A DNA stretch of 34,822 nucleotides from positions 1 to 34,822 of IMG/VR virus record IMGVR_UViG_3300029624_000203; one strand, written 5' to 3'. The notes beneath the pieces are model-generated. The model saw nothing but the letters and a program-made list of their open reading frames with translations, did no database searches and was not told where the DNA came from. This document shows, piece by piece, positions 1,168-28,578 of the stretch. The translations under genes and the position numbers were made by a program. How positions within the stretch are numbered: position 1 is the first letter of the stretch; the number at the start of each line of letters is the position of its first letter. The DNA comes from a virus.

Positions 1168-3153
1168 TTATGGAGGCGGCGGTGCCGCTTCGGGAATCTC
1201 GACCAGCATTGCTGCAGCGGTGGCGATGTCCTGCTCCTTGGCAATGGTGTAAGAGGTCGTCTTGAAGTAATGGGTGCTCCCCCGGTGGAAGCTCGACGCA
1301 CGCAGGACATTCAGGTGTTCTCGCCGGACCAAAAAGGCGCGTTCACCGGCGAGGTGCATGGTGGCGTTCGTTCCGAAACGTCCACGGCGCAGATTGGTAA
1401 GTGTGACCGAGTCATCGGCCCCCACGACATACCCTTCGACCGACATGATTTCATTGCCCAAGAAAAGCAGAACGGTGTCGGCATCTGCCTGCTCTGGCGT
1501 TTGTGACGCAAGCGTCAAGCGATCTACAGGATGCATTTCCAGCACACCATCGGTGCCGGTATCAAGCAGGTCAGCGAGCAACGTCCCGGATGCAGCGAAG
1601 AACCGGGCTTGCGCCAGAAAATTATAGCTCAGGTCGTCCGGTGAATGGAATACATTGTAGCCCGAAATCAGACCATGCGCTCGAACGCCCAAATGCGCCA
1701 GCGTGACGCTGGACTCATTGAGGGGCTCCGCCCCTACGCTCCCGCTGGTCGCTACCCCATCGGGCAACACAATCACTCGTTCAAACGGCATCGGATCGGC
1801 GTCGTAGGTCTCCTCCTCCGGTGGCGTGTAAGGAGCTGGCGTGATACCAGACACCTGATTGGCAACATCGAGCACGAACCCGATCTCCAGTTCCACGTCA
1901 TCGCTTCTGCGCTGGGATTTGCGCGTTACCCGGCAATTCAGCAAATAATCCGCACCGGGATAGGGACGCAGCTTGATGGGGTCGCCGGGATTCAGCAGGG
2001 CGGACTTGGAATAATGCGCCATGACTTTGCCGCTGACCTGTGGCAGCGCGGCCCGGCGACCAGCTTTGGCGACTTGCGCGTTGGCGACCGTTTGCCGGGT
2101 AATCCAGCGGCGTTGAAAAGTAATCGGCTCTTGAGTGCCATTCAGGGCGTGTGCCGCCGCATCATGATGAATGGCCACCGACTCCTTGAATTCCCGCTGC
2201 CGGTCGGTGTAAACCAGGCGCGTCTCACTGCTGACTCTCGCGAAGGCTCCCGTATCGATTTCGGGAAAATCGGTCTGGTCACTCGTATCGATGACCACCG
2301 CCTCGGCGAAATCCGCCGGAAGTGAAGCGGAACCGAACCGATACCGTCCATCTTTCTGATAGAGAAACCCGTCAAAGTAACCGAGGATTTCAGCCAAGGC
2401 CTGCGGCAAGGACTGGGCATTGCTGATGAGCGGTGAGAGCCCGATGTCCGCATCGACGAGTTTTTGCGAAGTTTCCTCTCCGCTGCCATCGAAGTCGGAC
2501 AGATAAATGCCGAGGCCATAGCGCGGGTGCGTCGCGAGTTCGATGGCGGCATGCACCGGGCACACGTCTCCATTCATGTCGGGATTGGCGTAGCCCGGAA
2601 TGACTGTCTTTCGCGAGACGACCACTTCTATTTGGGGAGCACTCGTGCGGTCACGGCCAAAGATCAGCGGGTCGAACACAATGTAACATTGCCCGCGATA
2701 AGCCGGATGCCCGCGAGGTTCGAGCAGTCCATCAACGAGCTGGCTGTCGCTGCCCCAGTAGAAACGCGCTTGGCCATAGTTCGGCAAGGTAATGAATGAA
2801 AACTGCCCGGTGATGGCTGTTAGCGGCCCTTCCCATACCTTGACCGTATCCACGTAAATGGCGTGCAGGGTGTCGATGGGCCCGCTGCAAATCACTCCTG
2901 CCAGCGCGGCCTGATAGGTATAGCCCACTGTCGCCGTCGAGGTGCTATCCTTGCCGCTTTGGTAGGTCGTCGTGATGGGAATCGCCTGCGGGTTTATCGC
3001 CGGTGTAATCCACGTAAGACCGAGACGAACCGTTCCCGCCACCCACGGCAGCGGACGGGCCTCCTCATTGGTATTCACCCGAACTGGCTGAATGTTAGTC
3101 AGCGTTTGAGTGGGCGGCGGCACCTTGTGACTGCTGCGAAAGAGAAAACTCAT
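1168..3153 (-). CDS. phage tail tip / host-specificity protein
   Basis: The 661-residue protein is read from ATG 3153 (MSFLFRSSHKVPPP), whose ATGA overlaps the stop of the peptidase gene. The open frame runs further upstream, but that part is an out-of-frame shadow of the peptidase. The N-terminal 150 residues hold an LPWVAGTVRLG...GYTYQAALAGVICSGPID segment typical of tail-tip/J-like attachment proteins. The middle is beta-rich (RPYPGADYLLNCRVTRKSQ) and the C-terminus ends in a Pro run. With the three upstream genes it matches the distal end of gene-transfer-agent and lambda-like tails, where the last large protein contacts the host. The assignment rests on position and N-terminal resemblance; the receptor is unknown. 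Confidence 0.75.
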   Translation of the reverse strand: MSFLFRSSHKVPPPTQTLTNIQPVRVNTNEEARPLPWVAGTVRLGLTWITPAINPQAIPITTTYQSGKDSTSTATVGYTYQAALAGVICSGPIDTLHAIYVDTVKVWEGPLTAITGQFSFITLPNYGQARFYWGSDSQLVDGLLEPRGHPAYRGQCYIVFDPLIFGRDRTSAPQIEVVVSRKTVIPGYANPDMNGDVCPVHAAIELATHPRYGLGIYLSDFDGSGEETSQKLVDADIGLSPLISNAQSLPQALAEILGYFDGFLYQKDGRYRFGSASLPADFAEAVVIDTSDQTDFPEIDTGAFARVSSETRLVYTDRQREFKESVAIHHDAAAHALNGTQEPITFQRRWITRQTVANAQVAKAGRRAALPQVSGKVMAHYSKSALLNPGDPIKLRPYPGADYLLNCRVTRKSQRRSDDVELEIGFVLDVANQVSGITPAPYTPPEEETYDADPMPFERVIVLPDGVATSGSVGAEPLNESSVTLAHLGVRAHGLISGYNVFHSPDDLSYNFLAQARFFAASGTLLADLLDTGTDGVLEMHPVDRLTLASQTPEQADADTVLLFLGNEIMSVEGYVVGADDSVTLTNLRRGRFGTNATMHLAGERAFLVRREHLNVLRASSFHRGSTHYFKTTSYTIAKEQDIATAAAMLVEIPEAAPPPP

Positions 3154-3605
3154 GATTCCATCAGCCGGTAGGCGGCGCTCATGCGCTTGGCGTAGGTTGG
3201 GTCGTTGATTTGGCCATAGGCGGTTCCCAGCCCGCGCATGGAATGGATGAAGACAGGCGGCTTGACCATCATGGCCAAATGATGTGGAGCCCGTCCCATG
3301 ACGAAGGTAACGAGGTCGCCCGTGATGAGTGGCGTCACTTCGGCCAGGCGAACACATCCCGGAATCGCAGCGAGATAATCATCCAGCATCGAGTCGTCCC
3401 GATGGGACGTGGCATCTAGAGTATAGCGCGGCGGTTTTAGCTCGTGCGGGAAACCGCTGGCGGATGCCAGTTGATACACCAGATGGACGCAGTCGCACCC
3501 GCCGCGTTTAATCCCTTGAAAGGGAACAAAAGGCGTGCCGATCCAGCTCTCTGCTTCGCGCTGAAGTTGCCGAATCCGATCCAGGTTCTTGAAGAAGGGT
3601 TTCAT
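3150..3605 (-). CDS. NlpC/P60 tail peptidase
   Basis: This 151-residue cell-wall peptidase of the NlpC/P60 family is associated with tail tips. The nucleophile region is GGCDCVHLV, with Cys39 as the likely catalytic residue. The second motif APHHLAMMV supplies His108 or His109, and His121 in FIHSMRG can be the third polar residue. It sits between the DUF2163/BR0599-like hub and the tail-tip protein, the same order as in gene-transfer-agent tails. Its expected role is local peptidoglycan cleavage during DNA entry. It starts with ATG six bases after a CTTCAATC repeat and overlaps the next gene by four bases. Confidence 0.85.
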   Translation of the reverse strand: MKPFFKNLDRIRQLQREAESWIGTPFVPFQGIKRGGCDCVHLVYQLASASGFPHELKPPRYTLDATSHRDDSMLDDYLAAIPGCVRLAEVTPLITGDLVTFVMGRAPHHLAMMVKPPVFIHSMRGLGTAYGQINDPTYAKRMSAAYRLMES

Positions 3606-5174: not shown

Positions 5175-6367
5175 TAGCGGACTCCCAGTAAGGTGAAGAT
5201 GTCGTTCAGGTATTCCTCAGCACTGCGGCCCGACGGGATACCAGTTTCGAAGGAAACGAACTGGCTGGCCAGTGCCTGGCCGAGGGATGCGTAGCTGCCC
5301 GCTCCGTTGATCGCGGCCGTCAGGTGCTCGTTGAAGGCGAGATTGTCGTCCTCCCAACTGGCCGCCGTGGGGTCAATGGAGTAGACCTTGCATCGCGAAT
5401 ACTCACGCCGGGCAAACTCGTTCTGAAACGCCACGTAGTCATTGGAAAACGACGAGGTCGGCTCGTTGGCCGCATTGCGCGGGACCTGATGGTAGCCGCC
5501 GCTGGCTTCGTTGATAAAAGCCAGGGAGACATAGCGGGCGGCCTGCTCGCCGGAAACGCGGTAGCCCAAGCGATCCAGCCAGCGCTCGCTCGACCAGTTC
5601 TGTACCCGCACAAAGTGATCCGCTTGCGCCTGATCGCCGCCATAGACCAGATCGCGCAGCCGCGCTTTCAGCTCGTTGGCGGCGGCCGTCACGTTCGGCA
5701 CGTCGGCATCCATGCTGCCCGAGGTATCAATGAAGAACAGGAAGTAGAGGTTCGACAGGAACGACAGCCAGTTGCTCTCGGTATCGACTTCGGTGAAGAC
5801 GAACTCCGCCGGAATCGACTCCAGCGGCGATTCACCCCTAAATTGAATCTCGAAGCTGCGCCCGGCACCGCCAACTACCTCGGACGGCACGGACTCAATT
5901 CGCCCCAGTTCCAGCGGCACCAGCAGGTCGCCGGGCAGAGCATTCACGGCGCTGTCCGTCACGATGGATGAGCCGTTTACAGAGGTAACCTTCGCAACTT
6001 CTGTGACATCACTAAATGGCTTCGCGATCCCGACCCACTGGCCGACTTCGATGTTTGGAGCCGAACGTTCCAACTGAACGGTTGCGCCGGTGACGCCCGC
6101 AATGACCTGCTCACGTCCCCAGAGCGGAACGGCGGCTTTGGCACTTTCGAGGGCTTCACGCAAAGCCGCTTCGACTGCAAAGGTGCGGTCAGCGGTGTCG
6201 GTTGAGATCGTGTATTGGATGCGTCGCTTGGGTTTTGAAAACCATGCGGCGCGTTCCTCCATTCCAGTTACTCCTTCGGCCACCGATGCACGATGCGCCA
6301 GGCGATGTTTGACCGCAAATGACCAGTCGGGAGCGAAGGGAACGAGCCTGTGATTGTTGATTTCCAT
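5174..6367 (-). CDS. distal tail protein with von Willebrand A domain
   Basis: The protein has 397 residues. Residues 1-200 resemble a distal tail protein: VPFAPDWSF near the start, FSKPKRRIQYT at 43-53, and a beta-rich region. From about residue 205 a von Willebrand factor A fold begins with LYFLFFIDTSGSMDADV, giving a complete MIDAS DxSxS (Asp214, Ser216, Ser218). The rest has alternating helices and strands typical of that fold. The gene lies between tape measure and hub, where the distal tail ring protein is expected. A metal-dependent adhesion domain here suggests attachment to a host surface protein or polymer. The domain assignment is firm; the adhesive role is inferred. Confidence 0.75.
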   Translation of the reverse strand: MEINNHRLVPFAPDWSFAVKHRLAHRASVAEGVTGMEERAAWFSKPKRRIQYTISTDTADRTFAVEAALREALESAKAAVPLWGREQVIAGVTGATVQLERSAPNIEVGQWVGIAKPFSDVTEVAKVTSVNGSSIVTDSAVNALPGDLLVPLELGRIESVPSEVVGGAGRSFEIQFRGESPLESIPAEFVFTEVDTESNWLSFLSNLYFLFFIDTSGSMDADVPNVTAAANELKARLRDLVYGGDQAQADHFVRVQNWSSERWLDRLGYRVSGEQAARYVSLAFINEASGGYHQVPRNAANEPTSSFSNDYVAFQNEFARREYSRCKVYSIDPTAASWEDDNLAFNEHLTAAINGAGSYASLGQALASQFVSFETGIPSGRSAEEYLNDIFTLLGVR

Positions 6368-13343: not shown

Positions 13344-14273
13344 CTACGAGCCACTGCCGGACCCGCCGCCAGCAGGCGCGACGATGCGCTTGAGGCCTGC
13401 GCTGAGGGCGGGAACAAAGCCGTAGAGGCATTCAAAGGCCACGATCTCCTTGCCGCTGTCGTTGTCGTAGAAGCGGCGGTAGCCGAAGGTGATGCCGGTT
13501 TCCGGGTCGGAGACCGGACCGGATTCGAGGTAGGACTCGGGGCGCAGCGGGGCGAGGTAGCGCATGGCGATGGCCAGCCCGGCCGGATGCGCGGCGAAGC
13601 CCACGAGGTTTTCGCCGTTGTCAGGTAGGACGATAGTGTCGTAGATGTCGAAGCCGTAAATGCGCGGGATGCGGGCCTCCATCAGCGACGGCTGGCTCAT
13701 CTGGGTGAGGTAGCTGTGGCTGATCTTCGGGTCGCCGAGCAAGGCCGTGTAGTAGGAGTCGTCGAGGATGAGGCTGCGCTCGGTCGTCGGCATCTTCGCC
13801 TGGGCACAGGCCCCGCGAATCCCGAGCACCTTCGAGGCGTCGAACTCGGAGGCCAGCACCTCGGGAATGGCCGGTGCTCCGTAGTTCGCGAGCGTGATGA
13901 CCGAGAAGATGTCCTGCAGCACGTCCTGCGCGAGCTGCTTGGCTTCCGATCCGGCGAGGCGTTCGAGCCGGATGAAACTCGACTCGGCGGCTTCCTTGTC
14001 GGTGAGGTGGAACGAGCGCACCTTGTGCCGGTTGCAGACCACGGGAATGGTCGTGACCGTGCGGTCGGCGTTCTGCGAATAGCTGCCCGCGAAGTCGGAA
14101 CTGGTCGGGAGCGCGTTGCCGACGACGGGCACATTCACGGTCTTGCCCCGTTCGAGGAACTCGGCGGAAAAGTCGGTCGAGAAGGCCCGCAGCGGCTGGA
14201 GCGCGGCGCGGAACGCTTCGAGGAAGGCCTGCGAGATGCGGATGTCCTGCAGATTAGTGAGGGTGTTGGGCAT
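13344..14273 (-). CDS. major capsid protein
   Basis: This 309-residue protein follows the protease and scaffold genes. The N-terminal helix (ISQAFLEAFRAALQPLRAF), a DFAGSYSQNADRTVTTIPV strand region, a central helix with LERLAGSEAKQLAQDVL, and the C-terminal GFDIYDTIVLPDNGENLVGFAAHPAGLAIAMR portion give an HK97-fold pattern; the last segment is common in P22-like and related coat proteins. The extreme C-terminus is a Gly/Ser tail. An intrinsic terminator lies directly downstream, as is common after very highly expressed coat genes. Identification is by order, size and segment likeness. The ATG has no clear Shine-Dalgarno sequence. Confidence 0.8.
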   Translation of the reverse strand: MPNTLTNLQDIRISQAFLEAFRAALQPLRAFSTDFSAEFLERGKTVNVPVVGNALPTSSDFAGSYSQNADRTVTTIPVVCNRHKVRSFHLTDKEAAESSFIRLERLAGSEAKQLAQDVLQDIFSVITLANYGAPAIPEVLASEFDASKVLGIRGACAQAKMPTTERSLILDDSYYTALLGDPKISHSYLTQMSQPSLMEARIPRIYGFDIYDTIVLPDNGENLVGFAAHPAGLAIAMRYLAPLRPESYLESGPVSDPETGITFGYRRFYDNDSGKEIVAFECLYGFVPALSAGLKRIVAPAGGGSGSGS

Positions 14274-15565: not shown

Positions 15566-17002
15566 TTACTCCTGATCCGTCTTGTCAACGGGCGGCTCGG
15601 GCATCGCTAGCATCTGCGTGCCACTCGGCTTCCAGAGCATGCTCACGGGCACGCCATACTTCTCGGCTGCTTCCATGATCGCTTTGGCGTCCTGCGCCCG
15701 GCGTTCGAGTTCCTCGCGAAAGTCCATGCCCAGCTCCGAGTAGTGGTCCGATAGCGTCTTGAGTCCGGTCTCGACATCGGCGCGGTTCTGCTGGGCCTCG
15801 CGGCCCGCATCGACCGTCACCCGGCGTGGGCAGACCCAGCCGACGCGGTTCCAGTGCTTGACCGGCGCGAGTTCTCCCCGGTCGATGGCGTCGCCAATGA
15901 CGTAGCCCCAGGTCGGGCGCAGCAGCCGATGGATCAGGATCATCTGGCGGTAACTGAAGCGTCGGTCGGCCTTGGCCACGACGAGACGGATGCCCGCGCC
16001 GCCGATCTTCCCGGCGTCGAGGACGAACTCGTAGGGCAGCATTCCGGCGGCGGAGTCGCGCTTGAGGTGTTCGAGGAAGCCGGTGAAGACGGGGCTTGGG
16101 CGGTTCGACTGGAAACTCTCCAGCGATTCTCCTGGCTGGAGTGCAACGATCTTGCCGCCCACGATGCGCTGGAGCGTGACCGGATCGCTGGGTGTCGGCG
16201 CTTCCGCCGGGCCCGCGTGAACAGAAAAGTCGGAGTTCTCCTCCACGCCTCCATTGTCGCGCTTGATGATACGGGCGATGTCGGCGTTGTCCTTCACAGC
16301 GTGCTTCTCCAGCGCCAGCATCTCCATCTCGTCGAGGATATGGTTGATCGAGTGCTGGAGGGTCGGTGGCTGGCGCACGCCGCTGGCCGACTCCGGCTCG
16401 AAGATGTGGAGGACAGCGTTGGCGGGCACGTCGCGGGTGGAGTTGTCGTCGAGGATCAGGCGGTAGGCCAGAGGGGCTCCGTAGGCGTCGAGGCGGATGC
16501 CATCGACCGTCTCCGTCGAGGCAAAGGAGTCGCCGATGCGGTGGGCTTCCACCAGTTGCAGGCGCGGTCGCCCAAACCGGTCACGTACCTTGATGCAGAA
16601 GTATTCGCCGTCCACGTCGAGGCCTCGGCAGACGAGGTGCTGGCATTCCTCGAAGCTAAAGCGCTGGGTGATCTCGGCCCGAGCCGCCCAACGGGCGAAG
16701 AAGTCCTCGGCGGCTTTGTTCCACTCGAGGTCGTCGGTCAGCGCCTGCGGCTGGATGCCGTCGCCCGTCGAGTAGATGGCCATGTCGGCTACCATCTCTC
16801 GGGCAAAGCCGGAGTTCTTGTTGAGGTAACGGGAGCGCCGGACCAACTCCCGGCGCGTGTGGCTCGTCAGTTCCTTCTTCGCATCCGTTGGGGCTGCTCC
16901 CGGCACGGGTCCTCGCCGACGCGAGGGATTGGCGTTCTCGTAGGCGGTGGAGGACTTGGGCTGGAGCAGGCCAGTCCAGAACTGACGGGAAAACGGGTTC
17001 AC
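15566..17002 (-). CDS. phage portal protein, lambda family
   Basis: The 478-residue protein starts with GTG, overlapping the gpW-like stop as GTGA. It shows the lambda-type portal pattern: N-terminal RRELVRRSRYLNKNSGFAREMVADM, then IYSTGDGIQPQ, a strand GEYFCIKVRDRFGRPRLQLVE, and the central ASGVRQPPTLQHSINHILDEMEMLALEKHA helix region. It forms the dodecameric DNA gate and the packaging motor dock. Neighbours (gpW-like joiner upstream, protease downstream) match lambda W-B-C order. A GTTGACA heptamer ends 13 bases before its GTG, and another lies near its stop. No transposition or truncation is seen. Confidence 0.9.
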   Translation of the reverse strand: MNPFSRQFWTGLLQPKSSTAYENANPSRRRGPVPGAAPTDAKKELTSHTRRELVRRSRYLNKNSGFAREMVADMAIYSTGDGIQPQALTDDLEWNKAAEDFFARWAARAEITQRFSFEECQHLVCRGLDVDGEYFCIKVRDRFGRPRLQLVEAHRIGDSFASTETVDGIRLDAYGAPLAYRLILDDNSTRDVPANAVLHIFEPESASGVRQPPTLQHSINHILDEMEMLALEKHAVKDNADIARIIKRDNGGVEENSDFSVHAGPAEAPTPSDPVTLQRIVGGKIVALQPGESLESFQSNRPSPVFTGFLEHLKRDSAAGMLPYEFVLDAGKIGGAGIRLVVAKADRRFSYRQMILIHRLLRPTWGYVIGDAIDRGELAPVKHWNRVGWVCPRRVTVDAGREAQQNRADVETGLKTLSDHYSELGMDFREELERRAQDAKAIMEAAEKYGVPVSMLWKPSGTQMLAMPEPPVDKTDQE

Positions 17003-17257: not shown

Positions 17258-17635
17258 ATGTCTACAATTGCGTTTTTCGTTTCAGGAGAACCTCGATCTT
17301 GGGGATCCAATAAACCGAGGGCTTGGATACAAGCTATTGCGGATGCTCTATATGTTTCCACCGACCTCCGCAACTGTTGTGACGTCTGCAACTTGGAAGT
17401 GACGTGTCTTCTCGGACCCAAAGCCTATGAGAACCAAAAGGTCATTTGTCACGGTCCTGACATAGACAATCTGCTCTCTCCCTTCCTCGAAGCATTGAAG
17501 CTTCCAGATTCGAACGCTAAACGGGTATTCGATGACGATACATACTTTGAGGAGGCGAGGATTCGAAAGATACGGGTTCTCAATGACTCAGCTGCGGGAG
17601 CATTTGTTATTGTTCGTCGTCAGCCTCAAATTTAG
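17258..17635 (+). CDS. RusA-like Holliday junction resolvase
   Basis: This 125-residue protein is one of only two plus-strand genes. It has an FFVSGEPRSWGSNKPRAW start, like the substrate-binding strand of RusA, and the family core GPDIDNLLSPFLEALKL with Asp68, Asp70 and Asn71. A second acidic cluster RVFDDDTYFEEARIRK (Asp92-94) matches the catalytic aspartates 70, 72 and 91 of RusA in spacing. It is expected to cut Holliday junctions before packaging. It is AT-richer than its neighbours, inserted antisense between the methyltransferase and gpW-like genes, and overlaps the end of the methyltransferase by 29 bases. Its promoter must lie inside the neighbouring gene. Confidence 0.75.
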   Translation: MSTIAFFVSGEPRSWGSNKPRAWIQAIADALYVSTDLRNCCDVCNLEVTCLLGPKAYENQKVICHGPDIDNLLSPFLEALKLPDSNAKRVFDDDTYFEEARIRKIRVLNDSAAGAFVIVRRQPQI

Positions 17636-18953
17636 TCGTCACATCCTCGCCGTTCCGTAGCACCGGCCGACCTTCGCCGAGGGCCAGCCATCGCTTCACG
17701 ATGACGTCGCAGTAGGCGGGTGAAATCTCCATGCCGTAGACGCGGCGGCCGAGTTGCTCGGCGGCGATGAGCTGACTGCCGGAGCCGCTGAACGGCTCGT
17801 AGCAGAGTTCGCCGCGCTTGGTGTGCTGGCGCATGGGGATAGCGAAGCACTCCAGCGGCTTGGGCGTCGGATGGTCGGGGCGCTCGTCGTTGTTGATGCC
17901 CTCGATGTTCCAGACGCTGCGCAGATACTCGCTGTCGGCGCGGGGCGGCTTCTGGCCTTTGACCCAGCCGAAGAAGCAGGGTTCATGCGCCCAGAGGAAC
18001 CAAGATCGCGTGAGGATCGGGCGGTTGGGCTTGTGCCAGATGATCTGCTGATGGACGAACGCGCCGTTCTTCTCCCACGCTTGTTCAACCATCATTTGGC
18101 GGCGGCTGGCGTGCCAGCAATACCACGCAGCGTTCGGATGGATGGCGTGCTCAATGGCGACCTTGATAAAGCGGTCGTAGAGGTCGTTGTTGCGCTCGTC
18201 ATCAGCCTCGTCCCAAGTCGCGCCGTAGGTCTCTGACCAGTCGGTGTTCTTGGTGCGGGTCTGACCGGGGTGGTTGGTGCCGTCGTAGCCGACCAGATAC
18301 GGCGGGTCGGTCGCGAAGAGGATCGCCCGTTCTCCCTGCATCAGGCGAATGACGTCTTCAGCCTTCGTCGAGTCGCCGCAAAGAAGCCGGTGCTCGCCCA
18401 GCTCGTAGAGGTCGCCCGGTTGCGTGATCGGATCGACCGGCGGCGCGGACACGGTGTTCGATTCGTCCTCATGAGTGTCGAGGCGGTCCAGGATGTCGTC
18501 GAGCGAGTCCTCATCAAAGCCGGTCAGGTCGAGGTCAATTTCCCCATCGAGTTCCTGGAGGAGTTTCTTGAGGGCGTCCTCGTCGGTCTCGGAAAGTTCA
18601 GCCAAACGATTGTCTGCAACGAGCACAGCCATCTCGTCGGCTTCGGTAGCGAAGTTCTGGTAGTCCACCGGCACGAGCGCGACGCCGAGTTTCTTCGCCG
18701 CCATCAAGCGACCATGCCCGGCGACGATCAGCCCACTGCGCTTCGAGATGACGATGGGATGCCGCCAGCCCAGATACCGGATGTTCTTCGCCAGCAATTC
18801 GATCTGCGCGTCCGGATGCTGGTTCGGGTTGCGCGGGTTGGGCTTGAGTTCGGCGGTCGGCACCAGTTCCTCGAACTGGCACCAGACCTCGACCCCGGCG
18901 GCGATGGCTTTGGCCTTGGGCGTTTCAGGAGTTGCGGCGGCGGTCTCGCTCAT
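17607..18953 (-). CDS. ParB-domain DNA methyltransferase fusion
   Basis: The protein has 448 residues. Residues about 35-110 are a ParB/Srx-like domain with GLIVAGHGRLMAAKKLG (78-90 region), the nuclease/CTP-binding box. After an acidic linker comes a beta-class N4-cytosine or N6-adenine methyltransferase: catalytic DPPY at 216-219, then an acceptor region with WYCWHASRRQMM, and the AdoMet motif EPFSGSGSQ from about residue 386. The motif order DPPY before FxGxG defines the beta class. Such fusions are frequent in phages and prophages and may modify phage DNA against host restriction or regulate packaging. It has no cognate nuclease beside it. A GTTGACA heptamer ends 13 bases before its ATG, and a second copy lies 18 bases further upstream. 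Confidence 0.9.
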   Translation of the reverse strand: MSETAAATPETPKAKAIAAGVEVWCQFEELVPTAELKPNPRNPNQHPDAQIELLAKNIRYLGWRHPIVISKRSGLIVAGHGRLMAAKKLGVALVPVDYQNFATEADEMAVLVADNRLAELSETDEDALKKLLQELDGEIDLDLTGFDEDSLDDILDRLDTHEDESNTVSAPPVDPITQPGDLYELGEHRLLCGDSTKAEDVIRLMQGERAILFATDPPYLVGYDGTNHPGQTRTKNTDWSETYGATWDEADDERNNDLYDRFIKVAIEHAIHPNAAWYCWHASRRQMMVEQAWEKNGAFVHQQIIWHKPNRPILTRSWFLWAHEPCFFGWVKGQKPPRADSEYLRSVWNIEGINNDERPDHPTPKPLECFAIPMRQHTKRGELCYEPFSGSGSQLIAAEQLGRRVYGMEISPAYCDVIVKRWLALGEGRPVLRNGEDVTTKFEADDEQ

Positions 18954-18966
18954 GCGAGCGCCGGGG

Positions 18967-18991
18967 TGTCAACTAGGAATTGTCTGTCAAC
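18967..18991 (-). promoter_or_regulatory. two GTTGACA heptamers before methyltransferase
   Basis: Minus-strand GTTGACA copies at 18985-18991 and 18967-18973 stand 18 bases apart. The nearer copy is exactly 13 bases from the ATG at 18953, and the farther one contains the stop codon of the TIR gene. This marks the left edge of the AT-rich cargo operon. No -10 element is visible at normal spacing. Confidence 0.5.
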
Positions 18992-20693
18992 GTCTTCTTT
19001 CGGCTAGCTTCGCTACTAGCATTTCAACAACTCTATTGATTTCTGCGAGTGCGTCAGATGATTTGGATAAGCTGATTACGCCGATTCTACGAGTACGGTC
19101 TAGCCCGGCGAATCTCTCACCTGGCATTAAAATCGCCACAACTTCGCCCTTAGAAATTCTTTCATGAAACTCGTCAGATTCAAAGCATGTCCATACTCTG
19201 TCAGGGTAATCTTTCCCTAGAATCGCTACAACGAATAGTGACTCGGTTCTGTATATGGGACCAAGATACTCCTCTAAATCTTGTGCGACTATTCTGTATT
19301 GTTCATTGTGATCATAGAATACAGAGACTTGTCGCTTCTTTAATTCATCGAAAAGCTTAGACGCAAAAACTCGATCCGATCCGGCAAACGAAAGCGCTAT
19401 GTCATATCTCGAGTTAAATTCAGCATGGGTATAACCTAGCTGTTTAGCGAATCTCGTCCATTCTAAGTTTTTCAGATAGAAAACAAATTTTGGATCTTCA
19501 GCTACAAGAGATCTGGTGCGAGGATCATAATAAACTAAATCATTAAAATCACTATTGGTTGAAATGAATTCATCATACTCCCCCGATTCGATTATCGGAG
19601 AAACACTTCGTTCGATTTCTGCATGCTGATTGGTTACTTCATCTATTTGAATGGACCATTCTTTAGATTCCGCCAAATACTTCAAAACTTGCAGATATGG
19701 AGCCCGACCTTCTCTGTGAAGAACTGGTCCGGTTGCCAAAATTCGAGTGCGGTCACTATAAACAGGATAGATATCAGAGAATACACGTTGCTTAATCAGT
19801 TCCACACTTGTCTCTACGCCAATTACCCTCTGTTGAGCTTCAGTTACGCCAACATCTAGACAAGCAGCATGGCAGAACATTTGTGTCAGATGGAAGCTAC
19901 CATTTGCAGCCTCTATGATCTCGTCTGCCAGGTTAAATTTAACTTTGAGAACAGATTCTCCTTTCAGAATCAATTCAGCAATCTTTTCTTTTGAATTGGA
20001 CTCAAACTTAACTCGGTCGACCCGGCCTGCTAGGTCGGGTGCGAAGCTGACCAAAGAATGACCGGTGCGATTAATTCCAACGATTACTATTTTATCGGCA
20101 GGATTTTCTTCATCTGCGAGTTGCTTAACCTGATTGGCTATCTCTCCTTTGAGTATATCATCAAGTCTGTGGAAATCATCAATTATGACTAGACCGAAAT
20201 TGTTAGCACGAGGCAATTCCTGGATTTCCTTACGGTGTGTCGGTTTTCTAGCAGACAGCAACCTTGAAGAATTCCTAAGATTTAAAGAATCGATAACTTT
20301 GAGAATGCAGGTAGTTTTTCCAATCCCAGATGGACCTTCAACAACCAGTCCTCTTCCCGGAGTTCTTAATGCTACTTTCAGGTCTTGAAACTCTGATGGC
20401 TCAACAAAAGTATAAGTAGGAATTCCCGATTTCTTGAAAACCTGCTCAAGCCTGATTTTAGAGTCGGAATCATCGGCTGGGGGAAAGACGTCCTCAATCG
20501 AATAGTTTCCGACAGCAGCGATACTGTTTAATGCATGAAGTATCCGATATTGATAAGGACGCGTAGGATTTCTTGTATTGTTTGCTGCTGCGCTTACAGT
20601 TGATGTTGAGACTTTCGCGTACTTCGAAAGAAGGGAAAACGTGATGCCCTCCTTTTGGAGGATTTCTTTTAAGTTGTTCTGATTTTCCTCCAT
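18987..20693 (-). CDS. HTH-ATPase-TIR protein, candidate defence effector
   Basis: The protein has 568 residues. Residues 1-70 form a Cro-like HTH (GITFSLLSKYAKVSTSTVSA). Residues 110-310 are a P-loop AAA/STAND-type ATPase: Walker A GPSGIGKTT (120-128), Walker B GLVIIDDFHR (Asp172-Asp173), a sensor-like IVIVGINRTG and Arg224 in GRVDRV. Residues 330-410 look like a winged-helix region. Residues 430-545 form a TIR domain: YDIALSFAGSDR, VFYDHNE, and WTCFESDEF with Glu505 at the position of the NAD-hydrolysing glutamate. The likely role is a trigger-gated NADase causing abortive infection or superinfection exclusion. The gene is AT-rich and forms an operon with a paralogous small HTH gene 21 bases upstream. 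The domains are clear; the defence role is inferred. Confidence 0.85.
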   Translation of the reverse strand: MEENQNNLKEILQKEGITFSLLSKYAKVSTSTVSAAANNTRNPTRPYQYRILHALNSIAAVGNYSIEDVFPPADDSDSKIRLEQVFKKSGIPTYTFVEPSEFQDLKVALRTPGRGLVVEGPSGIGKTTCILKVIDSLNLRNSSRLLSARKPTHRKEIQELPRANNFGLVIIDDFHRLDDILKGEIANQVKQLADEENPADKIVIVGINRTGHSLVSFAPDLAGRVDRVKFESNSKEKIAELILKGESVLKVKFNLADEIIEAANGSFHLTQMFCHAACLDVGVTEAQQRVIGVETSVELIKQRVFSDIYPVYSDRTRILATGPVLHREGRAPYLQVLKYLAESKEWSIQIDEVTNQHAEIERSVSPIIESGEYDEFISTNSDFNDLVYYDPRTRSLVAEDPKFVFYLKNLEWTRFAKQLGYTHAEFNSRYDIALSFAGSDRVFASKLFDELKKRQVSVFYDHNEQYRIVAQDLEEYLGPIYRTESLFVVAILGKDYPDRVWTCFESDEFHERISKGEVVAILMPGERFAGLDRTRRIGVISLSKSSDALAEINRVVEMLVAKLAERRR

Positions 20694-24643: not shown

Positions 24644-25276
24644 TCAACCGGCCTTCAAACGGACTGCTTCGAGGAAGGCGATGGCCTCTTTCAAGTCTTC
24701 GAGGACGGCTTGCGCCCGCTCCTTTGAGAACGTCTCGACCTTCGGAAGCATGGTCCGCGACCATCGGTTGAAGGCCAGTGCTTCCGAGTAGGATTCGGAG
24801 GGCGGCTTCGTGGAATCGTCAAGCTTCGGATCACGCTTGGCTTTGCGAATGGCCGAGCGGAGCTTGGGGACCGGAAGCTTTTCTTCCTGGGCTTTTTCGA
24901 GCCACTGCTGGCCTTCTTTCACCGAGGTTGTGTTGGCGAGCATGGCTTCCAGATGGTGGGTCCAGCTCAAATCGTTGCACCGGTGCAACGGTTTGAAGAA
25001 TTTGGCCACCATTTTGTAGCGGCGGAGGGACTGCTGTTCCAGCCCGGCGAGTTCGGCATACTGTTGCGTGTAGTGCTCGCCATGCCGCTCCTCCTGCTTC
25101 ACGAGGAAGTCGCCCCACCACCAGGCCTTGCAGCCTTCCATCCGTTGCAGGGTCAGACCGATGGCCGCCATGTCTTCATCGGACGGATCGCCCGTAAACT
25201 CCAGCGAAGTCGGGGTGAGTCGGCAACCCGGCAGGGCGATGGTTTGGTTGAGGGGTTCGAGGGTGGCCGTGCTCAT
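24644..25276 (-). CDS. hypothetical helical DNA-binding-like protein
   Basis: The 210-residue protein contains CKAWWWGDFLVKQEERHGEH, QQSLRRYKMVAKFF and LSWTHHLEAMLANTTSVKEG. The WxWGD...LSWxHH...W pattern occurs in small plasmid and phage proteins with helix-turn-helix character. The C-terminal half is helical and ends FLEAVRLKAG. Its role is unknown; it may be a replication or partition accessory protein. Its start overlaps the upstream stop as ATGA. A GTTGACA heptamer ends 14 bases before the start, and another covers the stop codon. Confidence 0.65.
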   Translation of the reverse strand: MSTATLEPLNQTIALPGCRLTPTSLEFTGDPSDEDMAAIGLTLQRMEGCKAWWWGDFLVKQEERHGEHYTQQYAELAGLEQQSLRRYKMVAKFFKPLHRCNDLSWTHHLEAMLANTTSVKEGQQWLEKAQEEKLPVPKLRSAIRKAKRDPKLDDSTKPPSESYSEALAFNRWSRTMLPKVETFSKERAQAVLEDLKEAIAFLEAVRLKAG

Positions 25277-25797
25277 GCCCTCGAACGGTTTGTCAACGCG
25301 TAGATGTCGCGTGCCCGGTCGCTCTTCATGAATTCCGAGGCCGGAAGGTTAAAGGCCTTTTTGATCTCGCGGACACGCTTGGAAACGGCGGCGCGAGTCA
25401 GCCCGTATTGCTTGGCGACCTGCGTCTGGGTGAGACCACGGGCTGCGCCGAAGCCGAAGGCCAGCGAGATGCATTCGGCTTCGAGGCGAGGGTTCTGGCG
25501 TTCCTCGATGATGCGATAGAGAAACTCCTTGAGCAGTTCTCCCACCGCCCGGGCACTTTCAACACCCTCGCTGGGTATTGGGTCTGCGTGGTCAAAGTCC
25601 TCCGCTTCCGGTGCGGCAACAGGAAGATCGGAAATGTCGTGGTTCCTGCCGTTCCCAACATAGGAGCACTCGGGCTTGTCCAACCCCATCTGCGCCAGCT
25701 TCTGCCGCTCCTCGAAAGGGAGCGTGGCCAACCAATCGCGATACGCACTGGCGTATTCGCGGTCACGGCTGGCCTGAAGCTGGCGGGCATCGTTCAT
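25273..25797 (-). CDS. sigma-like HTH transcription regulator
   Basis: The 174-residue protein is read from ATG 25797, five bases after an upstream TAA, with GGAGG farther back at 13 bases. The first 60 residues are helical (DREYASAYRDWLATLPFEER), followed by an acidic linker. A C-terminal HTH (GLTQTQVAKQYGLTRAAVSK) then resembles sigma-70 region 4 or a small activator. It may control late genes just downstream, since it is followed by the terminase genes. The stop overlaps the next start by four bases. Confidence 0.65.
   Translation of the reverse strand: MNDARQLQASRDREYASAYRDWLATLPFEERQKLAQMGLDKPECSYVGNGRNHDISDLPVAAPEAEDFDHADPIPSEGVESARAVGELLKEFLYRIIEERQNPRLEAECISLAFGFGAARGLTQTQVAKQYGLTRAAVSKRVREIKKAFNLPASEFMKSDRARDIYALTNRSRA
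25291..25297 (-). promoter_or_regulatory. GTTGACA heptamer, 14 bases before ATG
   Basis: This minus-strand GTTGACA lies in the last codons of the sigma-like gene (coding Leu-Thr in frame). Exactly 14 bases separate it from the ATG at 25276. Confidence 0.45.
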
Positions 25798-25799
25798 GA

Positions 25800-26048
25800 T
25801 TACGCGACGCCCTCCGGGATGGGAGTTTTGAAATAGACGCGGTCGATGGTGGCATCGAGCAGGTCGAGCCACGAATCTGGGAAGAGCACGGCGCAACGGC
25901 GCTGCTTCGCCAGCCGATGCAGTTCGAGTTTCTCCACCTGTGAAAGGGTCGAGAAACGGCGGAAATACAGATCGCTGGCAGTGATCGTAACGATGCCTAC
26001 CAGCGAGCCAGTAGCAGGGAGACCGAGAGCCTCAATGCGCTCCCGCAC
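25800..26048 (-). CDS. hypothetical protein, start uncertain
   Basis: The credible part of this frame is the last 82 residues from a GTG at 26048: RERIEALGLPATGSLVGIV, an ASDLYFRRFSTLSQVEKLEL helix and a C-terminal DATIDRVYFKTPIPEGVA segment. The frame stays open to 26498, but that part runs through the iteron block and is repetitive (HLAVVAVVAV), so it is probably not translated. A TTG at 26144 is another possible start. The stop is two bases before the next gene's ATG. No family is recognised. Confidence 0.5.
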   Translation of the reverse strand: MRERIEALGLPATGSLVGIVTITASDLYFRRFSTLSQVEKLELHRLAKQRRCAVLFPDSWLDLLDATIDRVYFKTPIPEGVA

Positions 26049-26079
26049 TGTCCAGAATCCGGGCGTTGCCGGGGAGTTA

Positions 26080-26392
26080 CTGCGAGATGGAACCGCTACT
26101 GCGAGATGTTTTGAGCGATTCGACGCATCTCGCAGTGAGCGCAATCCCAGTAAACAAGCCGCTTCCAGAGGAGTTACTGCGACTACTGCGACTACTGCGA
26201 GATGGTTCGGGGAAGTTTTTGTATTACATGTGTGTGTGTGACGCACACGCACACACGCGCTATGGACGGGGAGTTGAAAACATCTCGCAGTATCGCGCAG
26301 TCTCGCAGTAAATGCCGCAGCTTGTTCATTGGCAGCGACTTCCAAACTGCGAGATGTTCTGCGAGATGTTTTTGCCCTGCGCGATCTCGCAG
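26080..26392. repeat. CTGCGAGATG iteron block, candidate origin
   Basis: A 10-bp word CTGCGAGATG occurs on the plus strand at 26080, 26099, 26195, 26347 and 26359, and its complement CATCTCGCAG at 26126 and 26281. Truncated copies (TCTCGCAG, GATCTCGCAG) lie at 26301 and 26383, and three 9-bp ACTGCGACT-type units at 26176-26204. Copies 26347 and 26359 are 12 bases apart. The block lies just downstream of the primase-helicase gene. It has the features of a replication-initiator binding region and is not coding. Confidence 0.7.
26229..26255. other. strong TG/CA hairpin within iteron block
   Basis: A 12-bp stem, TGTGTGTGTGTG against CACACGCACACA with one G-T pair, encloses a three-base ACG loop. 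It sits in the centre of the iteron block. Alternating purine-pyrimidine runs can adopt Z-DNA or extrude as cruciforms, which fits an origin or regulatory site. It has no T-run, so it is not an intrinsic terminator. Confidence 0.6.
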
Positions 26393-26400
26393 GAAATGGC

Positions 26401-28578
26401 TCAGAACGGGTCGGCATCGCCATCCTCCGGTTGAAGGTTTGCGTTGGCGAGGGCCTCGATCTGGTCGTCGCGATAAATGAAGAAGGTCCGGCGTCCATCC
26501 GTTCGGCACCGTCGCTGGGCGACCCAGAGGTAGCCCTGGTTGATCATGGCGCAGAGACGGCGGCCGATGGAGATTGTGTTGTAGGCGTTCTGGACGAGCG
26601 GTTTGATTGTCTCGTCGGTCACGAGTGCGCTGTTGAGTTCCGCCGAGGTCCCGGACCAGCAGGAATCGCTTTTGGCACTGGCGAAGTAGTTGCTCCTCCA
26701 CAGGTCGAGGATTTCGGCAAAGCTGTTGGTCACGCTGGACTGCCGGGCGATTTCCTCGAGTTCTGGGTCGATGAAAGATCGGACGCCGAAGCGGGCATTG
26801 CCGACACATTCGACGGGGATCTGGAAGTCGAGCAGCCAACGGGCGAAGAACGGAAGTTCGCGGGCGATGATGGAGGCTACATCGGGTGGAAAATCCTTTC
26901 GCGCCCGCTCGTCCGACTTCAGCAGAATCAGCTTGTCCTTGATCGAGACATCGAGGTCAGGGAGAATGCGGATGGATTCCGGGTCGTCGTTGCAGGTGAC
27001 GAGAATCCGCCCGTTCCACGGCACAGTGAGCTGATCGCGGAACTTTGCATGGTAGTTGAACGTGTGGTTGGCTGCGACTTTCTTGACGAGGTTGGAGAAG
27101 CGCAGGTGGGCCTTCGGATCGCCGGAAACGGGATCGTCATCGATGGTCCAGAGGGCGTATTCGAAAAGTTCCTTGTTGAAGTTGCTGCCGCCCAAGAGGA
27201 AGTCGGTCGCTTCCTGTTTTCCGCCCACGAGCGGTGCGACCAGCCGCTCGGACAAGAGGGTCTTTCCTACTCCGGCAGGACCGGCAATGAAGACCGCCTG
27301 GCCTTTCAGCAGCGCTCCGTTGTAAGCGCTCGCGTAGAAGCGTTTCAGCCACGAGAGGAAGATTCCCAGCGCTACGTCGGAGAACATCGAGCCAAGGTAG
27401 TCGGCGATGAACGGGAACTTATCTCCCCATGCCTGGGAGTCTTCGGCAGGCTCCAGACAGCGCGTCGTCGAGATGTTGAGGTAGACCTTCCGGTTGATGC
27501 GAATGAGGGTGTCCTTGTGGTGAACGAAAGGCATGGCCCCCGCGACGGCCTTGCGCTGTTCGATCTCGTGGATCACGCAGTCGAGTTCCGAGGCCGGTTC
27601 GCCGTAGGGGTCAGGATCGAGGCCAAACTCCACCCGCAGGTGGCGGGCGAGCGTGGTCGCATTCATGGCCTGCCAGGATCTATCCGGCAGCCGTCGCCAG
27701 TAGTGGCGTCCATCGAAGTAGATGTCCTCAATGGCCCCGCCGATCTTCTCCTGCTGGTGGCGTTCGACGAAATCCCGCCCGAAGATATCCGCCCAGCTCA
27801 TGAAAGGCTTTCCGCCGGTGAAGCATTGGCAGCCGGTGTCGCGCACGATCACGGACAGGGCGTCGGCGTCCGGGTCCCAGAAGCGCACGCCTCTGGCACC
27901 TTCGACGAAAGGACCACTCCAGCGCCCCGGAAACCGGACCAGAAGCTCCTTTTCGACCTCGGCCAATGGAATGACCGCCCCCGCCTTTTTGAAGTCCTTC
28001 TGGCGGCTGGCGGACTCGATCCAGTGCCAGAGGACATCGGGTCCGACGGGCGCACCTCCGAATTCCTGCCACTCCAGCCCGCATTCGTAGTAGCGGCACA
28101 CATCAAAGAAGGCCTCCTCGTCGAGTCCCGGCAGAAGCGCATTCAGACCCAAGCTCGTGCGGGCCCGGTTCAGCGTTCGCTTGAGAATTCCTGCCCCGTG
28201 GATGGGCATGGGAACGGCGAAGCGCCAGACAAGCCGGGCACCGCCCGAAAAGGTCCGCGAGCCGAAGGAAGGTAGAACCTTGCCGCTGGCCCGACTGATC
28301 GCGTCCCGCAGGGCGCTGTCGCCCAGATTGGCGTCATAATCGACGACCAGCCCGTGGAGGAATTGCGGCGGATTCTGTTTGGAGACCCGCAGGTTCGGAT
28401 TCAGCCCCTCGGTGAGGTTGTAGAAGAGGTGATCCGTCCCGTTCTCGGCGCACCAGGAGCGGAAGCGGCGCTTGTCCTTAAAGGCGTAACCCGGATGGGC
28501 AAACGAGGCGGGATCGCTGCGGGAAAGGCGGCTTTCAGAGAGGTTCGGAAGGCAGAAAAATGGAAGATCATCACTCAT
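26401..28578 (-). CDS. primase-helicase with D5/SF3-type ATPase
   Basis: This 725-residue replication protein has an N-terminal primase-polymerase-like part with VDYD at 79-82 and GSRTFSGGARLVWRF (106-120), as in AEP-type primases. A C-terminal superfamily 3-like helicase carries Walker A AGPAGVGKT (432-440), Walker B ALWTIDDDP, and a polar strand RILVTCNDDPESIR as motif C. The C-terminus is winged-helix-like. It should prime and unwind phage DNA. Its ATG lies inside the last codons of the RuvC-like gene. The iteron block sits immediately after its stop codon. Confidence 0.8.
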   Translation of the reverse strand: MSDDLPFFCLPNLSESRLSRSDPASFAHPGYAFKDKRRFRSWCAENGTDHLFYNLTEGLNPNLRVSKQNPPQFLHGLVVDYDANLGDSALRDAISRASGKVLPSFGSRTFSGGARLVWRFAVPMPIHGAGILKRTLNRARTSLGLNALLPGLDEEAFFDVCRYYECGLEWQEFGGAPVGPDVLWHWIESASRQKDFKKAGAVIPLAEVEKELLVRFPGRWSGPFVEGARGVRFWDPDADALSVIVRDTGCQCFTGGKPFMSWADIFGRDFVERHQQEKIGGAIEDIYFDGRHYWRRLPDRSWQAMNATTLARHLRVEFGLDPDPYGEPASELDCVIHEIEQRKAVAGAMPFVHHKDTLIRINRKVYLNISTTRCLEPAEDSQAWGDKFPFIADYLGSMFSDVALGIFLSWLKRFYASAYNGALLKGQAVFIAGPAGVGKTLLSERLVAPLVGGKQEATDFLLGGSNFNKELFEYALWTIDDDPVSGDPKAHLRFSNLVKKVAANHTFNYHAKFRDQLTVPWNGRILVTCNDDPESIRILPDLDVSIKDKLILLKSDERARKDFPPDVASIIARELPFFARWLLDFQIPVECVGNARFGVRSFIDPELEEIARQSSVTNSFAEILDLWRSNYFASAKSDSCWSGTSAELNSALVTDETIKPLVQNAYNTISIGRRLCAMINQGYLWVAQRRCRTDGRRTFFIYRDDQIEALANANLQPEDGDADPF

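Follow-up and report, generated by a model that had tools for sequence, protein, structure and literature searches.

The origins of the PICI and SaPI elements are situated immediately 3' of rep and consist of two iteron sets flanking an AT-rich region, a layout that in 2018 was described as shared by PICIs and by no other known bacterial replicon (PMC6092414). SaPI Rep recognises the downstream iterons by way of its C-terminal domain, and the same holds for SCCmec Cch2 and the repeats that lie downstream of its gene, Cch2 being a SaPI5/D5-like helicase that has been proposed to load itself (PMC7581432). ORF904 of pRN1 likewise combines an archaeo-eukaryotic-type primase, an SF3 helicase and a C-terminal winged helix with an origin downstream of the gene, and the work on this protein also cites the P4 alpha protein and its iterons (PMC4234260). 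In lambda O type origins the iterons are placed inside the initiator gene. The alpha protein of phage P4 is a primase-helicase with a winged-helix origin-binding domain, and it too is associated with iterons.

The locus described here belongs to an uncultured bacterial virus, whose record of 34,822 bases was analysed over its full length and is referred to as the window. It resembles the PICI/SaPI origins in that a block of repeats sits immediately 3' of a primase/helicase gene, in that there are two iteron sets, the inner triplets of the window being inverted around a 76-bp core that would be the site of melting, in that the iteron sequence varies between elements, and in that the initiator would be a helicase, with or without a primase part, that carries a DNA-binding domain at its C-terminus, which in the window is predicted by modelling. 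It differs in that the window is a full tailed phage with portal, capsid, tail, terminase and PolA genes and not a satellite, in that its core holds an alternating TG/CA tract whereas the PICI/SaPI core is AT-rich, and in that the outer sites are conserved too in the window family. By analogy, the window origin would work like a PICI origin, although the window itself is not a PICI. The block lies outside the gene, unlike the lambda iterons, and the primase-helicase of the window gave no TOPRIM match, whereas the primase of P4 is of the TOPRIM type. Further differences are the mere three iterons and the separate polymerase serving as primase in SCCmec Cch2 (PMC7581432), and the stem-loop of about 100 nt and lack of iterons in pRN1 (PMC4234260).

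The repeat block and its surroundings

The window contains terminase, portal, major head, tape measure and tail genes together with a replication module, all of it on the minus strand, that comprises a helicase-nuclease, an HNH protein, PolA, a Holliday-junction resolvase and the primase-helicase. A gene of low GC content at 18987-20693 (about 41% vs 60%) encodes an HTH, an AAA/STAND-like ATPase and a TIR domain; it is a PADLOC candidate matching PDC-S59 and PDC-S66 and is possibly a phage-carried defence gene. The features of the replication locus are the following.

25273..25797, minus strand: gene of a sigma-like HTH protein downstream of the block, a disfavoured rival reader
26080..26392, both orientations: iteron block of 12 sites, proposed replication origin
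26080..26108, plus strand: outer pair, exact sites at 26080 and 26099
26126..26135, minus strand: outer exact site
26177..26204, plus strand: inner triplet on the far side, CTGCGA at 26177, 26186 and 26195 in 9-bp steps, inverted relative to the other triplet
26205..26280, no strand: core of about 76 bp between the inner triplets, proposed melting element, with an alternating purine-pyrimidine TG/CA tract inside
26229..26255, no strand: 12-bp TG/CA hairpin within the core, not conserved in the relative L007
26281..26308, minus strand: inner triplet on the primase side, pointing to the core, with CTGCGAGATG at 26281-26290, the degenerate CTGCGCGA at 26293-26300 and CTGCGAGA at 26301-26308; L007 counterpart at offsets 92/101/110
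26347..26368, plus strand: outer pair, exact sites at 26347 and 26359, 12-bp step
26383..26392, minus strand: outer site CTGCGAGATC, an eighth CTGCGAGATG-like copy with one mismatch and the first site past the primase stop codon, at a distance of 8 bp
26401..28578, minus strand: primase-helicase gene, 725 aa, DUF5906/SF3 helicase at about residues 420-600, proposed initiator
26470..26673, minus strand: predicted C-terminal winged-helix domain (residues about 636-703), proposed iteron reader

The block occupies the gap that follows the primase-helicase gene and consists of seven exact copies of CTGCGAGATG (starts at 26080+, 26099+, 26126-, 26195+, 26281-, 26347+ and 26359+), four variants and one degenerate copy, the site count being 12 with the last of these included, where the initial annotation had listed seven full and several truncated copies. 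The whole window holds a single further exact CTGCGAGATG, at 14229, and with at most one mismatch allowed there are 16 matches vs 3.7 expected and a maximum of 9 in 100 shuffles, which confirms the block of seven full copies in both orientations that had been reported. The truncated copies, the ACTGCGACT tandem, formed by the CTGCGA units of the far inner triplet, and the 12-bp TG/CA hairpin are all present as well. A scan of the whole window for clustered 9-mers revealed no second cluster as strong as the block and an 8-mer scan gave one weaker cluster of five copies (16330-16622); the enrichment of the word is specific to the place of the block. The initial annotation had the repeats run through open frames, but those in question (25800-26498 and others) match no family, and the corresponding stretch in relatives is an intergenic gap. 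Cumulative GC skew, which had been suggested as a check, proved uninformative, as it rises steadily through the window with no switch at the block.

Site maps and cores of the relatives

The closest primase relative, L007, has a primase that is 66% identical and carries in the equivalent gap a block of another word, TGTGAC[AG]T. Site maps were drawn with offsets counted from the primase stop and with F and R giving the orientation, the word of each locus having been picked by eye beforehand. The window map reads 11F 39R 51R 95F 113F, core, 203R 212R 221R 268F 299R 318R, and that of L007 reads 8F 34R 47R 92F 101F 110F, core, 199R 208R 217R 264F 276F 302R. Position (within 5 bp) and orientation agree at 10 of the 11 window sites, and none of 20,000 random maps gave 9 or more matches, the best reaching 8, with the same outcome when the window's own gaps were permuted. 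When positions were fixed and orientations shuffled, 51 of 20,000 maps reached 10 matches, and orientation alone is therefore the weaker part of the map evidence. The degenerate copy at offset 103 completes the inner triplet of the window and is the member missing from the 11-site map. Furthermore, the two blocks align as DNA with a score of 21 vs a shuffled maximum of 5. The spacing, which had been described as irregular apart from one 12-base pair, is not so, because it matches that of the relative site by site, and the two inner triplets with their 8-10-bp steps are regular as well. L007 has GTGA at 12 of 12 sites, and in the equivalent place the window has GCGA or GCGC at 12 of 12, GCGA being found at 11. 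Judged from the two sequences, the word has changed in concert at fixed positions, as is expected if a single protein reads all sites.

A wider primase search returned 46 loci from viruses and 11 from genomes, and where an organism was named it mostly belonged to the Verrucomicrobiota; 35 downstream regions were left for comparison once near-duplicates had been removed. About 18 of the 35, mostly Verrucomicrobiota-associated, have a repeated word of their own in the gap behind a homologous primase-helicase, the top 7-mer being present in mostly 4-9 copies and mostly above the shuffled maximum, which is 3-4 in most shuffles. Words found in this way include GTGTCCC, TGGACAC, GTGACAC, GCGTCAG, CATGACG and ACACCCT. 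The absence of the repeats from close relatives, which the initial annotation had named as grounds for rejecting an origin, thus applies to the literal word, since exact CTGCGAGATG is private to the window phage, but not to the block, which is common to relatives and found at the same place. The block is kept in L096 with another small gene intervening, the homologous primase-helicases of L008-L013, L101-L110 and L112-L115 have no block in the gap, and other clusters near the block are few in a whole-locus scan of the relatives. In 14 of 17 loci the inner sites on the two sides of the core have inverted orientations, and the usual layout in relatives is two inverted sets flanking a core of about 80-115 bp. 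A comparison of the DNA at 25400-27200 with annotated phages gave no match, nor did the primase proteins of the window and L100 match any of 50,697 deposited phage records. IMG/VR scans for tandem or inverted pairs of the word found no locus with a primase relative, and the dense clusters that they returned resemble coding repeats.

The core of the window contains an alternating purine-pyrimidine run of 20 bp (shuffle mean 6.9, p 0.001) and that of L007 one of 44 bp (shuffle mean 7), the combined p for alternating tracts in the cores being 2e-12 over 18 loci, among which relatives are not fully independent. The cores of relatives are usually either alternating (TG/CA/TA) or AT-rich, those of gut relatives being AT-rich, and the AT content of most is 55-80%. 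The window itself has no AT-rich melting region, with 49% AT in the core vs 46% in the flanks. The central hairpin of the initial annotation is present in the window, where its folding has only a modest advantage over shuffles (z -1.4), and L100 has a hairpin as well, but as a conserved element it was rejected because the L007 tract folds no better than shuffles. The conserved element is the alternating TG/CA/TA or AT-rich core and not the hairpin.

Candidate readers and function of the block

The AlphaFold2 model of the primase-helicase has a mean pLDDT of 87.7 and displays a predicted SF3-type helicase fold. Foldseek gave the C-terminal region of the NrS-1 phage primase-polymerase as best match to the helicase part (E 2.8e-13), further structural matches being vaccinia and mpox D5/E5, SaPI5 Rep and PriRep1. 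DUF5906 is present in 32 of 32 family members, and the primase N-terminus has a visible DYD motif and no Pfam primase family match. Residues 616-712 are modelled as helix-strand-helix-helix-strand-strand, and the winged-helix domain when folded alone has weak structural matches, mainly to MarR-type winged helices (E 0.01 and above), whereas its sequence profile found nothing significant in PDB or Pfam. Most block-bearing primase-helicases, including that of the window (26401-26420), carry an acidic tail whose last residues are PF, which we take to recall the C-terminal tip of SSB.

The winged helix is the least conserved part of the protein, with 31% identity between the window and L007 vs 83% for the helicase. 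In 16 close pairs, which are not independent of one another, word mismatch tracks winged-helix identity with a rho of -0.61, and the values for the other parts in the same pairs are -0.05 (helicase), 0.00 (N-terminus) and -0.20 (sigma-like HTH). Over all 17 block-bearing loci, a partial Mantel test of word vs winged helix did not reach significance (r 0.15, p 0.12). Since it is the least conserved part and the word follows its identity in close pairs, the winged helix, itself a prediction, is likely to be the reader of the iterons.

The locus is best explained, by analogy, as a PICI/SaPI-like origin that would be bound by the phage's own primase-helicase and opened at the core. The placing of an origin next to this gene in the initial annotation gains support from the comparison with about 18 relatives, from the conserved site map and from the PICI/SaPI layout, and on these grounds the block is likely to be an origin of replication whose cognate protein is the neighbouring primase-helicase. 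We infer a sequence of primase-helicase binding, core opening, double-ring loading and replication start at the block. Copies of the protein would bind the iterons, spaced at 8-10-bp steps in the inner triplets, via the C-terminal winged helix, and the two inverted triplets would set two rings facing the core of about 76 bp, the alternating TG/CA tract of which would open first. SF3 helicases would then load at the opened core and proceed outwards as they unwind the DNA, and synthesis would be started by the N-terminal primase domain together with the phage PolA.

The block could instead be an operator or enhancer bound by the downstream sigma-like/HTH proteins and controlling the following operon, as its place just upstream of the sigma-like gene in the window and many relatives might indicate, and iteron origins do often regulate too. 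The window and L007 proteins are however nearly identical in their HTH recognition region (79% over the C-terminal part) though every word has changed, neither promoter-like nor terminator-like sites turned up when looked for at the block, and the block persists in L142, where the next gene is a different one and not sigma-like; such a function is accordingly quite improbable. The initial annotation had named both proteins as candidate readers, of which the primase-helicase is the better one, because the DNA-binding helix of the sigma-like protein is nearly unchanged between phages with different words. It is unlikely, but less so, that the block is an origin read by host DnaA or an unseen phage initiator with the primase-helicase recruited later, which is a variant of the preferred explanation and compatible with an origin. 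The primase-helicases of gut relatives have an extra N-terminal HTH and separate in-gene arrays, and more than one DNA-binding activity is therefore present there, but the word varies from phage to phage, unlike a DnaA box, and among the compared domains only the winged helix follows it in close pairs. A partition, packaging or recombination site is brought to mind by a ParB-like/methyltransferase gene (17607-18953) and terminase genes on the same contig. These genes are however 2-8 kb from the block, whose place at the primase-helicase gene is constant among the relatives, and such functions do not require a core of the melting type, making this the least probable reading.

An origin cognate to the primase-helicase bears on the old question of how specificity can shift jointly in an initiator and in the many sites that it binds without loss of replication. 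In two homologous origins nearly every site position is kept while the word differs at each, and the predicted DNA-binding domain differs most, which suggests from sequence comparison that initiator protein and binding sites change in step. About 18 natural initiator-origin pairs permit a direct swap test. Rather speculatively, these Verrucomicrobiota-associated phages may change the word at every origin site jointly with the initiator's winged helix under a fixed map, possibly as an escape from satellites or competing phages with the same initiator, and if this is true the family is a natural set of mutually non-interfering initiator-origin pairs. The occurrence of a PICI-type layout in tailed phages with this primase family furthermore bears on where PICIs acquired it.

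Further repeat arrays among the relatives

Among the compared loci, in-gene arrays occur only in gut relatives, where a second repeat array lies within the primase-helicase gene (L090:2199-2450 and L093:2958-3180, also L122, L124, L126, L130, L136, L146 and L148). This array encodes the linker from the N-terminal HTH to the primase core, and its word varies by phage (GAGGTATCA, GACAATGCA, AGGGTTCA, AGGCTACA and others) and differs from the repeat of the downstream block. A third repeat block, TCATTCCCAC / GTGGGAA in both orientations, follows the primase at a downstream distance of about 2 kb and uses nearly one word across phages (L087:4225-4406, L090:6530-6745, L091:1815-2021, L124:8146-8349 and L126:8132-8301). 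L007 has a second TG/TA alternating tract at 6020-6180 between TTACTGTTAC / GTAACAGTA words, with one CTGCGAGAT among them, and in L089 a tandem array of GATTTAACCG units (2802-3155) is located directly 3' of the terminase gene.
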